IMG/VR virus record: IMGVR_UViG_3300017765_000078
Coordinates: 1 to 22,118 of that record
Origin: a virus
Length of the DNA stretch: 22,118 nucleotides
Reading direction: 5' to 3' (one strand)
Shown: piece by piece, positions 6,903 to 16,042 of the stretch
How positions within the stretch are numbered: position 1 is the stretch's first letter
How the letters are laid out: the number at the start of each line of letters is the position of its first letter
Notes under the pieces: generated by a model
What the model was told of the DNA's origin: nothing
Seen by the model: the letters and a program-made list of their open reading frames with translations, nothing else
The model's database searches: none
Position numbers and translations under genes: made by a program

Positions 6903-7271
6903 ATGGATATTAAGTATTTTAAGTTATCCGAATTTGATTGTCCTTCTGATAGTGGATCAGGAGAAAATATGTGTCTTGATTTTTTAAGTAAGTTAGACAA
7001 TGCTAGAGAGTTAGCAGGAGTTCCTTTTAAAATTACATCGGGATATAGGTCTCCAAAACATAATACATCAGTAGGTGGAGCTTTAAATTCTTCACACATG
7101 AATATACCATGCAATGCTTGTGATATAGCAGTACCTGACAGCTCTACTAGATATAAAATTATAGACTCCCTTTTAAAAATGGGAATAAATCGCATTGGAA
7201 TTGGTAAAAATTTCATACATTGCGACACCGATAAAGAAAAAAGTCCAAATGTTATTTGGCATTATTATTAA
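6903..7271 (+). CDS. M15-family peptidase endolysin
   Basis: A 122-residue metallopeptidase of the M15 D-Ala-D-Ala/L-Ala-D-Glu carboxypeptidase group, which cuts peptidoglycan cross-links at lysis. The core motif SGYRSPKHNTSVGG spans 46-59. The presumed zinc ligands are His65 (SSHM), Asp74 (ACDIAV) and His106 (FIHCDTD). ATG 6903 (MDIKYFKLSEFDCP) is preferred because it gives the usual family N-terminus and lies just after the basic peptide gene. ATG 6840 and a TTG at 6771 would add residues encoded within that upstream gene. The protein has no signal peptide, so it would need a holin; membrane peptides lie on both sides. Confidence 0.85.
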   Translation: MDIKYFKLSEFDCPSDSGSGENMCLDFLSKLDNARELAGVPFKITSGYRSPKHNTSVGGALNSSHMNIPCNACDIAVPDSSTRYKIIDSLLKMGINRIGIGKNFIHCDTDKEKSPNVIWHYY

Positions 7272-8891: not shown

Positions 8892-9092
8892 ATGGAAAAT
8901 TACACACCTTTTCAAGACGCTATCATAGCAGATGTAAAAAAGTCTAAAGAAACAGAGATTAAAATATTACGAGAGAACAATCGTAAAATGAAACTAGAAA
9001 TTATAGAATTAAAGCAAGAACTTAATTCTAAAGAAAAAGCAAAGTTACTATTAAATAATATTAACTTTCAAATAAGAGAGTATTTAAAATAA
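8892..9092 (+). CDS. Small coiled-coil protein, first gene of early block
   Basis: A 66-residue, charged, almost wholly helical protein. From residue 17 on it has a heptad-like Lys/Glu/Leu/Ile pattern (ETEIKILRENNRKMKLEIIE and onward) that predicts a coiled coil. It is the first gene after the early promoter and has the TAACTAACTA leader. First early genes often encode host-modifying or regulatory proteins, but nothing here shows a specific function. Confidence 0.65.
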   Translation: MENYTPFQDAIIADVKKSKETEIKILRENNRKMKLEIIELKQELNSKEKAKLLLNNINFQIREYLK

Positions 9093-10373: not shown

Positions 10374-10691
10374 ATGAAAAATGACTATGACAAAGTAAGA
10401 ACTTCAAGGAATGAGCTTGAGGCAATACTAAGAATAAGAGGAATATCTAAGCAACGATTTGGTAGAATATTAAATATTACAGGATCAACTATAGAAAAGT
10501 ACATAGAAAACCCTTATCATTTAAGATACTATCAAATGCAAAGACTTGCACAATTTTTAAACATAGAAGTAAAAGATGTTATAGATATTATTGAAATAGA
10601 TTTAAAAGAAGATTCAATAGTGGTTGAAGGTGAAGATAACTTTAAGGCTGTAGAATCATTAATAAAACAAAAGAACAATGACGATATATAA
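10374..10691 (+). CDS. XRE/Cro-like helix-turn-helix protein
   Basis: A 105-residue protein. Residues 10-60 match an XRE-type helix-turn-helix: helix (NELEAILRIRG), ISKQRFGRILNIT, the recognition-like helix GSTIEKYIENP, then LRYYQMQRLAQFLNIEVKDV. That layout is typical of Cro/CI-like repressors. The C-terminal 35 residues are acidic. It has no peptidase or dimerisation domain, so it is more Cro-like than CI-like. It overlaps the next gene by 14 bases. It could control the early promoter or take part in replication, being surrounded by replication genes. Confidence 0.7.
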   Translation: MKNDYDKVRTSRNELEAILRIRGISKQRFGRILNITGSTIEKYIENPYHLRYYQMQRLAQFLNIEVKDVIDIIEIDLKEDSIVVEGEDNFKAVESLIKQKNNDDI

Positions 10692-11136
10692 ATTAGAATT
10701 TACTAAAGAAAGAGACGAAATAATTAAGTCTGAAATTTCAAAAAGATACAACTTAAATTGGGAACAAATACAATCTACAAGTAGAGTAAGGATTGTTGTT
10801 GATGCTAGAAGGTTATATTGTGGTATATTAAGATATATTTTTAGATTAACATTTCAAGAAATTGGAGATATTCTTGATAAAAATCATGCAACTATAATTC
10901 ATAATATACAACAACATGATGCTTTTATTAGAATTTTAAAGTCATATAAAAAAAATTATGATGAAATAGAAAGAACTATGTTGTTAGATGACAATTATTA
11001 TATCCACGAAGTTGTTGAAGTAGAAAGAAAAATGAACGAGCTTTCTATTAGATTAAAAGATTTAATAGAAAAGAAAAATGAGTATAAATTAAAAATTAAA
11101 AACAAAACAAATGTCAGAAAAAAATTATGTAGCTAG
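10678..11136 (+). CDS. Stand-alone DnaA domain IV-like DNA-binding protein
   Basis: A 152-residue protein. Residues 20-80 match the DNA-binding domain IV of the initiator DnaA: an early helix, then R-x-R (36-38), DARRLYCGILRY (42-53), the EIGDIL turn (61-66), and KNHATIIHNI (68-77), equivalent to the DnaA-box signature RDHATVLH. There is no AAA+ ATPase domain. Residues 100-152 are a Lys-rich coiled coil. In DnaA this domain binds origin boxes, so this protein may mark the phage origin or block host DnaA boxes. It lies between an XRE-like gene and an SSB-like gene, overlapping both. Confidence 0.78.
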   Translation: MTIYKLEFTKERDEIIKSEISKRYNLNWEQIQSTSRVRIVVDARRLYCGILRYIFRLTFQEIGDILDKNHATIIHNIQQHDAFIRILKSYKKNYDEIERTMLLDDNYYIHEVVEVERKMNELSIRLKDLIEKKNEYKLKIKNKTNVRKKLCS

Positions 11137-13658: not shown

Positions 13659-13989
13659 ATTACAATATCCTGATGCTAAGTATTGTGCTAGTTTAGGAGG
13701 TATAAGAACATCGTTTAAACAAGCAGTTAAGGCTAAGGCTACAGGATATGTTAAAGGCTTTCCTGATTTACAAATCTGCGTTCCTATGGAGAGGGGGGGT
13801 GCCTCAGAGGGGGGGGGTGTCTATCATGGATTGTTCTTAGAAATAAAGAAGGATAAAAAATCTTATCCAACCAAAGAACAGAAAGAATGGATAGCATACC
13901 TTAATGAGCAAGGGTATTGTGCTAGGGTTACTAAAGGGTTAGATGAGAGTATAGAAGTGATTGATAACTATTTTAATAAAAAGATATGA
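13609..13989 (+). CDS. VRR-NUC domain nuclease
   Basis: A 126-residue nuclease of the PD-(D/E)xK group. Motifs: EEEVQKSVVKYL (5-16), KGFPDLQI with catalytic Asp53, LFLEIK with Glu78 and Lys80, then YPTKEQKEWIAYLNEQGY (86-103). VRR-NUC proteins in phages act on branched DNA such as recombination intermediates. Oddities: no ATG is available, since the frame opens after a TAA at 13594 and the first usable start is TTG 13609 behind an A-rich leader. Between the Asp and Glu-x-Lys motifs sits a Gly-rich insert (ERGGASEGGG) encoded by two poly-G tracts. The stop overlaps the next ATG (ATGA). Confidence 0.82.
   Translation: MRNQEEEVQKSVVKYLKLQYPDAKYCASLGGIRTSFKQAVKAKATGYVKGFPDLQICVPMERGGASEGGGVYHGLFLEIKKDKKSYPTKEQKEWIAYLNEQGYCARVTKGLDESIEVIDNYFNKKI
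13793..13817 (+). repeat. Two poly-G tracts (G7 and G9) inside the nuclease gene
   Basis: G7 at 13793-13799 and G9 at 13809-13817 lie within a near-repeat of GAG-Gn-TG. Runs of this length are exceptional in DNA this AT-rich. They encode part of the linker ERGGASEGGG between active-site motifs of the VRR-NUC protein. A change of one G would shift the frame before catalytic Glu78/Lys80. Confidence 0.9.
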
Positions 13990-14186
13990 GTATTAATATA
14001 TACGAAAGAAAAGATATGCGAGGTGGAGGTTATGCCAAGCGTAAGTTTACATATGAAGAAGCACAGAAGGTTAGAGCAGACTACAAGACAGGTAAGTACA
14101 CTCAACATGATCTAGCATCTATGTATAAGGTAAGTCAGTCTATAATCAATAAGATACTTAGGTTTAAGACTTATGTGAAAATATAA
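13986..14186 (+). CDS. Small helix-turn-helix protein
   Basis: A 66-residue basic protein coupled to the nuclease gene by ATGA overlap. Residues 20-60 look like a homeodomain/Psq-like helix-turn-helix: FTYEEAQKVRADYKTGKYTQ, HDLASMYKV, SQSIINKILR. It is the last gene before a terminator and may act on sites in the intergenic region beyond it. Confidence 0.65.
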   Translation: MSINIYERKDMRGGGYAKRKFTYEEAQKVRADYKTGKYTQHDLASMYKVSQSIINKILRFKTYVKI

Positions 14187-14216
14187 AAGAGGTTGTGTGT
14201 GTTTTGGTTGAAAGAA

Positions 14217-14248
14217 GTCAAGGAATTTATTTTTCTTGGCTTTTTTTT
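14217..14248 (+). terminator. Rho-independent terminator ending the early block
   Basis: GTCAAGGAA (14217-14225) pairs with TTTCTTGGC (14232-14240) over 9 bp with two G-U pairs, followed by eight T (14241-14248). It lies 31 bases after the last early gene and isolates it from the cassette downstream. Confidence 0.85.
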
Positions 14249-14260
14249 ATTTCTGCTCAT

Positions 14261-14305
14261 TGAAACTGCCGACCCTCCCTGAAACTGCTGAGGCCCTGAA
14301 ACTGC
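14261..14305 (+). repeat. Three iteron-like direct repeats, TGAAACTGC
   Basis: Exact 9-mers TGAAACTGC at 14261-14269, 14280-14288 and 14297-14305, spaced 19 and 17 bases start to start (near two helical turns), with C/G-rich spacers. The spacing fits binding by a multimeric DNA-binding protein, as at origins with iterons or at operators. Confidence 0.8.
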
Positions 14306-14429
14306 TAGGTATTTTGGTTGAGGTTTGCTTGATAATGGGCCTTAAAAATAATTGCTTTTTTATTTGGTTATTTAGTTTTTTTTGTTATTCGTGCGGGCGT
14401 TCCTATATATTACACCGATTAAACATTTA

Positions 14430-14465
14430 TTGTAAATAATTTGTAAATTTGTTGTAAATAATTTG
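14430..14465 (+). repeat. 14-bp direct repeat overlapping the promoter -33 box
   Basis: TTGTAAATAATTTG occurs at 14430-14443 and 14452-14465, 22 bases apart (about two turns). The last four bases of the second copy are the -33 TTTG of the cassette promoter, so a protein bound here would cover the promoter. A candidate operator. Confidence 0.7.
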
Positions 14466-14492
14466 GTTATTTGTTTTTTTGTTGTATCTTTG
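14462..14492 (+). promoter_or_regulatory. Bacteroidota-type promoter of the accessory cassette
   Basis: TTTG (14462-14465), 19 bases, TATCTTTG (14485-14492): the same element and spacing as the promoter at 8817. Transcription would begin near 14498, giving a short leader before ATG 14528. Confidence 0.78.
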
Positions 14493-14527
14493 CCAAAGAT
14501 TTAATTAACTAACTAAATTATAAACCA

Positions 14528-14623
14528 ATGACAAAAACATTTGAAACAATCACTAATTTAATTTATACGGGCGGCTTTATTGCCTTAATTACTTTTACTA
14601 TTAACGCAGCTATTAATTCATAA
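14528..14623 (+). CDS. 31-residue membrane peptide, first gene of cassette
   Basis: ATG 14528 follows the promoter and the TAACTAACTA leader. The peptide is MTKTFETITN followed by one hydrophobic segment (LIYTGGFIALITFTINAA) and a short polar end. It has no relative that I recognise. Support comes from its place right behind a good promoter, its leader motif and the clear membrane design. Confidence 0.5.
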   Translation: MTKTFETITNLIYTGGFIALITFTINAAINS

Positions 14624-14633
14624 AACTAAAAAA

Positions 14634-14846
14634 ATGACTGATTACAAAATAACAAACAAGAAAACAAAGCAAGTACAAATAATGAACGGAAAACAAGCGG
14701 CAGACTTTAAAAAAATAAATTATGAAAACAATTACGACATTCAAGCAATAACAAGCAAAAAAGATAAGATAATATTTAATGTTGTTGCGGTTTGTCTAAT
14801 GATCGCCTTATATTTAGGACTTACACAACTTTTAAGCATTATATAA
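14634..14846 (+). CDS. Small membrane-anchored protein
   Basis: A 70-residue protein: a Lys/Asn-rich soluble N-terminal part of about 45 residues with strand-like character (DYKITNKKTKQVQIMNG), then one C-terminal membrane segment at about 48-66 (IIFNVVAVCLMIALYLGLTQ). This tail-anchored layout would leave the N-terminus in the cytoplasm. It starts 10 bases after the preceding peptide. Function unknown. Confidence 0.6.
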   Translation: MTDYKITNKKTKQVQIMNGKQAADFKKINYENNYDIQAITSKKDKIIFNVVAVCLMIALYLGLTQLLSII

Positions 14847-14882
14847 ATAAATAATTAACTAACTATTAAAACACTTTAAAAA

Positions 14883-15317
14883 ATGGACACGCACACAATG
14901 AACGACCCAAACAACCCGATCAACTACAAAGAAACTCAAGAAGATAGAGAACACGCAAAAAATGAATTAATGCGAGACACTTTGCAGGGCTTAACAATTA
15001 AGTATTTAAATGATGATGCTTTAGACTATTTGAGCTGTTCAGAAGAGCTAGGACACAAAGACAGCAGCGAAATATTCGATGACCTTTGCGAGGGTGGATT
15101 TTGGGATGTTGAGATCATTTATTATTCCAAGGCGATGGAATACCTCAGAGAACACGATACAAGCCTTTCAGAGTCTTTAGAAATGGCTAACGAGTTCGGC
15201 TATAATTTAGAGAATTTAAACAGCGAAACACTTGCAAGCCTACACGCATCAAGAAAGAAAGAAGAAAATTTTTGGGACTTTGTTGCCCCTGAATTAGATA
15301 AAATATATAATAAATAA
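14883..15317 (+). CDS. Acidic helical cassette protein, unknown function
   Basis: A 144-residue acidic soluble protein. Residues 55-85 (SSEIFDDLCEGGFWDVEIIY, then KAMEYLREHD) and 95-125 (LEMANEFGYNLENLNSETLA, SLHASRK) form a pattern I recall from small proteins on Bacteroidota plasmids and phages, with no known activity. The first 20 residues are Asn/Asp/Pro-rich and probably disordered; ATG 14898 is an alternative start. Codons ending in C (AAC, ACG, GAC) look more frequent than in the structural genes, which may point to a different origin. The leader holds TAACTAACTATTAAAAC. Confidence 0.65.
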   Translation: MDTHTMNDPNNPINYKETQEDREHAKNELMRDTLQGLTIKYLNDDALDYLSCSEELGHKDSSEIFDDLCEGGFWDVEIIYYSKAMEYLREHDTSLSESLEMANEFGYNLENLNSETLASLHASRKKEENFWDFVAPELDKIYNK

Positions 15318-15320
15318 TAC

Positions 15321-15600
15321 TAACTATAAAACACTAATAAAATGAAATACAAACTAAAAAAACAAAGATTCTTAAGCTATATGTTTGCAGATAAAGAAGA
15401 CTATCTATATTGGGGTGAATATTTAGCGGATGAACTAGCAGGAGAGGGCAAGATCAATCTAACACTAGAGGAGATACTACAATCAACGGGGGATATTCCT
15501 GTATATTATTTTGATTTAGAAGATGAAAGCGGACACCCCGAGTACATTGATCCGAAAAATGTTAAACTAATTTAATTAATAACTATAAAACACTAATAAA
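15321..15600 (+). repeat. Identical 21-bp leaders before two cassette genes
   Basis: Bases 15321-15341 and 15580-15600 are identical, each directly abutting an ATG. The core is AACTATAAAACACTAATAAA. Coding sequences downstream are unrelated, so the shared part is the leader itself, either duplicated or conserved for translation control. Confidence 0.85.
15342..15575 (+). CDS. Small acidic cassette protein, unknown function
   Basis: A 77-residue protein with a basic start (MKYKLKKQRF) and an acidic remainder (ADKEDYLYWGEYLADELAGE, DIPVYYFDLEDESGHPEYID). It is rich in Tyr and Asp. Such dense negative charge occurs in DNA-mimic and other inhibitor proteins, but that is only a compositional hint. 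The 21 bases before its ATG are identical to those before the next gene. Confidence 0.6.
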   Translation: MKYKLKKQRFLSYMFADKEDYLYWGEYLADELAGEGKINLTLEEILQSTGDIPVYYFDLEDESGHPEYIDPKNVKLI

Positions 15601-15897
15601 ATGAGACTAATAACAAAAGAAAGTATCACAGCATTCATGAACGCACAGAAATTTAATAAAGCTAATATGTCAGTAGAAGTATTGCCAAACGTAACAATAT
15701 TAAAGTTACATAACAACGCTATTGCATACAGATACAACGACCCACAACGCACGTTAATGATAACTAATTGCGGCTGGTTTACTCCAACAACTAAAGAAAG
15801 ATTAAACGCCTTACCTAATGTAAACATTTATCAAAAGTCTTTTAAATGGTTTCTAAATGGTAAAGAGTGGGACGGATCAAAAACAGATATTAATTAA
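15601..15897 (+). CDS. Conserved phage protein with C-terminal 'FLNGKEWDG' motif
   Basis: A 98-residue protein. The middle has ILKLHNNAIAYRYN and a strand pair (RTLMITNCGWFTPTTKERLN), and the end is FKWFLNGKEWDG. The 'LHgN-IA ... GW-T-TT-eRLNAL ... W-lNG--WDG' series recurs in small phage and plasmid proteins of unknown function. No catalytic motif is apparent. It is the last sizeable gene of the cassette. Confidence 0.65.
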   Translation: MRLITKESITAFMNAQKFNKANMSVEVLPNVTILKLHNNAIAYRYNDPQRTLMITNCGWFTPTTKERLNALPNVNIYQKSFKWFLNGKEWDGSKTDIN

Positions 15898-15907
15898 ATA
15901 AAATATA

Positions 15908-15988
15908 ATGAGTGGACAACTTCCAAAGACTAATCCTAGCAATCTTATATTAACTATATTATTTTTTCTAGCCTTGTTAGGTTGTTAA
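15908..15988 (+). CDS. 26-residue hydrophobic peptide
   Basis: ATG 15908 follows the preceding stop by 10 bases. The peptide has a polar start (SGQLPKTNPSN) and a hydrophobic end LILTILFFLALLGC, where LALLGC looks like a lipobox but has nothing after the Cys. It lies just before the cassette terminator. Too short to be sure it is expressed. Confidence 0.35.
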   Translation: MSGQLPKTNPSNLILTILFFLALLGC

Positions 15989-16009
15989 TATAAAACACGC
16001 TAAAAATAC

Positions 16010-16042
16010 AAGACTTATCATTAAATTGATAGGTCTTTTTTT
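16010..16042 (+). terminator. Rho-independent terminator ending the cassette
   Basis: AAGACTTATCA (16010-16020) pairs with TGATAGGTCTT (16027-16037), 11 bp with one G-U, loop TTAAAT, followed by further T to 16042. Together with the terminator at 14217 it brackets the cassette as its own transcription unit. Confidence 0.9.

Follow-up and report, generated by a model that had tools for sequence, protein, structure and literature searches.

The window analysed here is the whole of virus record IMGVR_UViG_3300017765_000078, a stretch of 22,118 nt (22.1 kb). Its replication block, which includes a DnaC-like loader and nucleases, has head and packaging genes on both sides, and downstream of a VRR_NUC gene and an HTH gene lies a cassette of six small genes, designated A to F (Table 1). 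Among named phages, the nearest terminase to that of the window belongs to Croceibacter phage P2559Y (43% identity), so the virus most likely infects marine Flavobacteria. Searching phage records for DNA similar to the window gave no match, and neither did an Rfam scan of the window. Relatives were collected with proteins C and E and then compared gene by gene; A3 varied too much to serve in a distant search. What we call host-family genomes belong to a family reached via a Kordia MAG contig bearing gene C, which may not be the family of the host itself. Three observations concern the neighbouring genes: the VRR_NUC gene carries a run of nine Gs at 13808-13817, a possible slippage site; the end of the HTH protein in L011, L014 and L015 has Gly-rich repeats, also possible slippage sites; and a protein encoded at 10678-11136, for which no PHROG match was found, contains a stretch (NHATIIHNIQ) that by eye resembles the DNA-binding domain IV of DnaA.

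Table 1. Features of the cassette and of the genes upstream of it, in window coordinates
Feature	Position	Strand	Remarks
VRR_NUC gene	start 13609		upstream of HTH gene and cassette
HTH gene	13986-14186		cassette follows it
5' intrinsic terminator after HTH gene	14210-14247	+	pattern scan, folding against shuffles
TGAAACTGC array, three units	14261-14305	+	spacing 19 and 17
Conserved noncoding block TTTTTTGTTATTCGTGCGGGCGTTCCTATATATTA	14377-14411	+	alignment with L007 and L010
22-nt direct repeat	14425-14446/14447-14468	+	82%; site of the Fur-type box in relatives
Bacteroidota-type promoter TTG-N19-TATCTTTG	14463-14492	+	retained in relatives
Early leader motif AACTAACTA	14507-14515	+	second copy at 14857-14865
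Gene A, 31-aa membrane peptide	14528-14623	+	homologues in L007, L008, L010, L015, L043, L044, L049, L054
Gene B, 70 aa, C-terminal membrane segment	14634-14846	+	
Gene C, 144 aa, all-helical	14883-15317	+	founder member of a large family confined to viruses
Gene D, 77 aa, patchy	15342-15575	+	in four other contigs
Gene E, 98 aa	15601-15897	+	PHROG 554 / PF23790
Gene F, 26-aa membrane microprotein, Gly-Cys end	15908-15988	+	
3' intrinsic terminator	16010-16037	+	pattern scan, folding against shuffles, positional counterparts

An initial annotation had described this stretch as a separate transcription unit with a terminator at each end and a promoter of its own at 14462, and this description holds. 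Both terminators were found by pattern scan and both fold beyond their shuffles, at -16.6 kcal/mol (z -4.8) for 14205-14250 and -13.1 kcal/mol (z -7.0) for 16005-16042, no shuffle folding equally well in either case. The 5' terminator is conserved only in the nearest lineage (L005, L006, L007 and L012), and at the position equivalent to the 3' terminator L014, L015 and L019 carry a terminator unrelated in sequence. The promoter is of the Bacteroidota -33/-7 type and not sigma70-like (a sigma70 scan is uninformative in a phage this AT-rich); it is thus the host-type promoter expected of early host-takeover genes. The direct repeat said to overlap it is real, but it lies at and just upstream of the -33 side and does not extend over the -7 element. 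The leader motif AACTAACTA occurs eight times in the window against 0.63 expected, and is restricted there to positions ahead of the genes at 8892, 9138 and 9428 and to the cassette; this distribution, ahead of early genes and in the cassette only, groups the cassette with the replication operon.

All six annotated open reading frames exist, with the starts given for them, and each has homologues. The prediction of at least three membrane peptides is borne out by A, B and F, which are hydrophobic (best 17-aa Kyte-Doolittle means of 1.6, 2.5 and 2.0, respectively) and predicted to be single-span membrane proteins. Purifying selection acts on A, B, C, E and F, with dN well below dS. For gene D, dS to L007 is 0.05, compared with about 1 for B and C, and D may be either recently exchanged or slow. 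The Gly-Cys pair of gene F is terminal or within two residues of the end in 13 of 13 strong homologues. Gene F resembles a lipoprotein signal peptide with nothing beyond the cysteine; read as a signal peptide ending in a lipobox cysteine, it has a constant Gly at -1 and a variable -3. Microproteins of this type, 26-30 aa long, were seen in L008, L011, L014, L015, L016, L018, L043-L045, L051 and L096.

The cassette genes had been thought to lack known families, and a profile search of each protein overturns this for one of them. Gene E matches PHROG 554 along nearly its full length (3e-19) and PF23790 (Kyanoviridae Gp96) over residues 1-89 of 98, with 54.9 bits against a curated cut-off of 27, and is thus a member of that family. 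The family counts 332 phage records and is found elsewhere in large phages as well; its member in Pseudomonas phage CHF7 comes third in gene order, ahead of the RNA polymerase, and in Vibrio phage VEN it lies near the left end. The model of E (pLDDT 91) resembles numerous phage proteins that are uncharacterised and has a weak match to DUF8033. For A, B, C, D and F, none of the libraries gives a function. Gene C, modelled as all-helical (pLDDT 85), has no family match in Pfam or PHROGs; its relatives occur at no fewer than 87 viral places and in one of 299 host-family genomes, on a contig also recorded as viral. Gene C is, as far as its homologues indicate, the founder of a virus-only family absent from both libraries. 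Neither C nor E has a significant counterpart in the PDB by sequence or fold, and a search with PADLOC defence profiles returned only C against Cmr5, at a chance-level E of 0.017.

Upstream of the promoter, the conserved noncoding block has an exact core in four viral contigs and contains CGTGCGGGCGTTCCTATATATT, which is conserved in the window, L007 and L010; its place is taken in other members of the clade by a GT- or CA-rich block with TTCTATATA at its end. The TGAAACTGC motif, with five copies in the window against 0.17 expected, forms same-strand arrays of 2-7 irregularly spaced units between the nuclease genes and the promoter in all clade members read. Such arrays were found in at least 119 viral stretches, some of them inside genes, and a VRR_NUC gene directly precedes 70 of 119 distinct arrays among the matches listed; two adjacent units occur in just 2 of 150 host-family genomes. 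They are common in marine Bacteroidota phages (for example L014 at 5877, L015 at 4426 and L141 at 3134), and in some phages TGAAACTGC also lies within the nuclease coding end, in two reading frames. With regard to a possible host Chi-like role, TGAAACTGCTG exceeds its reversed control in hosts, yet the arrays are nearly absent there; the irregular spacing of 9-19 nt makes classical replication iterons unlikely. The idea that CGTGCGGGCGTT is an abundant flavobacterial repeat was dropped, as it was present in 4 of 150 genomes as a single copy each.

Between the array and the promoter, many relatives carry the sequence ATTTAGAATNATT(A/C)TAAAT, which in its C variant is the Fur box of Riemerella anatipestifer (Flavobacteriales), published with gel-shift support (PMC5609570). 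With at most one mismatch, it is present in 33 of the 117 distinct array regions listed and in none of 20 shuffle rounds. The control regions of L008 and L016 contain the putative Fur-type site ATTTAGAATNATTATAAAT, and the box also stands upstream of gene C in array-less phages; none was found in L014, L015 and L020. Of 120 host-family genomes, 22 contain the exact 21-mer TTATTTAGAATNATTATAAAT and none its reversed control. In 17 genomes, sites with at most one mismatch lie ahead of genes for FecA-like and siderophore receptors, hemA, aconitase, SufT and ApbC, and also ahead of CcoS, NqrA and a multihaem cytochrome operon, a set that takes in Fe-S assembly and respiratory genes. An operator matching a proven Fur box is thus present in the relatives, and the same operator precedes iron genes in host-family genomes; its simplest reading is a site for Fur. 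In host genomes L239 and L244, two Fur-type boxes about 60 bp apart (near 1501-1580) adjoin a gene for a small cysteine-rich protein, in one case with a FecA-like receptor gene on the other side.

It is doubtful, though quite conceivable, that the box instead serves a different member of the Fur family (PerR, for instance) or an activator acting on respiratory genes in general, in which case iron would not be the signal. Each host genome has few exact copies, which turn up repeatedly ahead of the same cytochrome operon, the fully symmetric published form occurs in 1 of 60 host genomes, and the half-site ATTATAAAT is similar to the PerR consensus of Firmicutes. Against this, the sites with at most one mismatch precede the receptor, hemA, aconitase, SufT, ApbC, CcoS and NqrA genes listed above, and the box is nearly identical to one with gel-shift support.

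The window itself has no such operator. When the whole window was scanned, the best match to the Fur-type box was a single one with three mismatches, inside a gene at 7254. L007 and L010, the nearest diverged relatives, carry the box with one mismatch and at a spacing of 54 bp; at the box site (in the region 14425-14468) the window has an 18-nt deletion, as do L005, L006 and L012. The window lineage has evidently lost the Fur-type box by deletion, and since the window is without it, all statements on iron apply to relatives and to other phages, not to the window sequence.

The distance between box and promoter, measured from the box end to TANNTTTG, is informative. Among host sites, those of the cytochrome operon, nqrA and ccoS lie at 44-46 bp and those of other host genes closer or elsewhere, and in phages found via the TGAAACTGC arrays the distance is mostly 44 or 54-55 bp. 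An independent scan of viral contigs, in which any spacing of 36-62 bp was allowed and no choice was made by gene or array, listed at least 98 distinct box-promoter sites: 25 at 43-47 bp, 67 at 54-58 bp and 6 elsewhere. That 92 of the 98 listed fall in the two modes has a binomial probability of 1e-32 against a flat spread, a value overstated because some contigs are related. The genes sampled within 3 kb downstream of the listed viral sites include primase/helicase, exonuclease and endonuclease genes; none of the host iron genes collected here lies downstream of these sites among the matches listed. Outside the cassette clade, among contigs L279-L387, many Bacteroidota phages with no relation to one another show the box 43-47 or 54-58 bp ahead of TANNTTTG, upstream of early DNA-metabolism genes. 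The two modes differ by one helical turn and put the middle of the box at about -66 or -77 relative to the expected transcription start. This phasing would fit an activator that has to face the polymerase, and repression from a distance is possible. Overall, the pattern points to early promoters being under iron-linked control in Bacteroidota phages broadly.

How far the cassette itself is accessory can be judged from its conservation. The initial annotation had likened it to a moron, that is, an isolated accessory cassette, and it does have its own promoter and both terminators. A horizontally acquired unit of this kind, outside the core programme of the phage, would also be in keeping with the identity to L007, which is 75-88% from the control region to gene C, below the 92-99% of most of the replication block (gene D reaches about 97%), with the gain or loss of extra small genes between B and C and around F in relatives, and with codon use. 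C-ending codons are indeed enriched, as had been noted: the two-fold C/(C+T) fraction is 0.40 against 0.24 in the other window genes used (Fisher p 3e-4), an excess due to genes C and E. In relatives these two genes share the bias (C 0.42 and E 0.38 against 0.28 for terL, but 0.37 for VRR_NUC), which would make it a trait that belongs to the genes themselves, not a mark of recent import. The order B-C-E-F recurs between the VRR_NUC and terminase genes down to about 50% protein identity, and every clade member examined has the cassette, each time flanked by the VRR_NUC/HTH genes on one side and terS/terL on the other, whereas a moron should be absent from the same site in close relatives. The genes do travel together as far as B, C, E and F are concerned, but A is found in about half of the relatives compared and D is patchy. 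Being core and syntenic in the clade, the genes largely refute the moron reading, which we regard as very improbable. The stretch is nevertheless evidently mosaic and exchange-prone, though conserved. In comparison with the near-identical L006, only the gene E region is lower, at 93-95%, and the start of gene E (15601-15720) differs from L006 and L005, genomes otherwise 99-100% identical, a sign of local exchange.

We consider it probable, though by no means assured, that the cassette represents an early operon conserved within one clade of marine flavobacterial phages, with products that act on the host early in infection and with Fur-type control in many relatives. Host RNA polymerase with its main sigma factor would read it from the Bacteroidota promoter, as it would the replication operon, giving early transcription that ends at 16010-16037. 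A, B and F may then sit at the inner membrane early in infection, and C and E could be soluble factors aimed at the host or its defences, roles suggested by placement only. An operator of the Fur family, lying 44 or 54-55 bp before the -7 element, would in many relatives tie the promoter to the iron state of the host; the window lineage appears to have lost this operator. The host takeover originally proposed is plausible and unproven: since T7-like phages have the E family in their pre-RNA-polymerase region, an early, host-takeover assignment is reasonable, and the placement of E indicates early position, not function. T7-like phages keep anti-restriction genes in that same region. The CHF7 position of the E family, the variable small genes among conserved ones and the local exchange within E between near-identical genomes could accordingly point to an anti-defence island, with C, D, E and the variable insertions serving to block host defence systems and an arms race driving the turnover. 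This we find unlikely, since no gene matches a known anti-defence protein (the libraries used hold few such families) and C, E and F have been long retained, not replaced.

Since the cassette adjoins the terminase genes, late expression is conceivable, and its position directly before the packaging genes, together with its single-span membrane peptides, could suit a late or packaging-linked unit expressed with the terminase genes, the peptides serving lysis. The separate host-type promoter, the early leader motif, the 3' terminator ahead of the packaging genes and the early placement of the E family in T7-like phages make this improbable.

What is new here lies in the control region of the relatives; we found no paper in the open-access literature on Fur boxes at phage early promoters in Bacteroidota. 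We tentatively propose, as a reading that may well be right, that Bacteroidota phages widely set a host Fur-family operator at one or other of two helically phased sites ahead of early promoters of host type, in imitation of how it is laid out at the iron-using respiratory genes of their hosts, thereby favouring early expression in iron-replete, respiring cells; the B-C-E-F operon would be wired in this way, and the window lineage would have escaped by deletion. Large parts of the ocean are growth-limited by iron, and algal blooms draw a major response from Flavobacteria. If true, a phage early programme that reads the iron regulator of its host would couple infection to iron status. The cassette also yields a large virus-only family (C) and a conserved membrane microprotein of 26-30 aa (F), both easily expressed and assayed.

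Several known systems offer points of comparison. Set against the Riemerella anatipestifer Fur box, ATTTAGAATTATTCTAAAT (PMC5609570), several phage sites are identical to ATTTAGAATNATTCTAAAT; the commonest form in phages and marine hosts, however, carries ATTATAAAT as its right half, and the phage form stands at fixed spacing upstream of early promoters and is not in the window. Gene E matches the PHROG 554/PF23790 family along nearly its whole length, whereas in these flavophages it is part of a small operon that also includes C and F. With the pre-RNA-polymerase (class I type) region of T7-like phages, the cassette has in common a host-polymerase promoter, small uncharacterised genes and gene E, but the window shows no phage RNA polymerase, and the cassette, instead of lying at a genome end, separates replication genes from packaging genes. 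Lastly, the stx1 gene of Shiga toxin phages is Fur-regulated, and thus a phage gene under host iron control, as we suggest, putatively, for the phages described here. There, however, it is a repressed, prophage-borne cargo gene, whereas here it would be the early promoters of many Bacteroidota phages, with an activator-like spacing.
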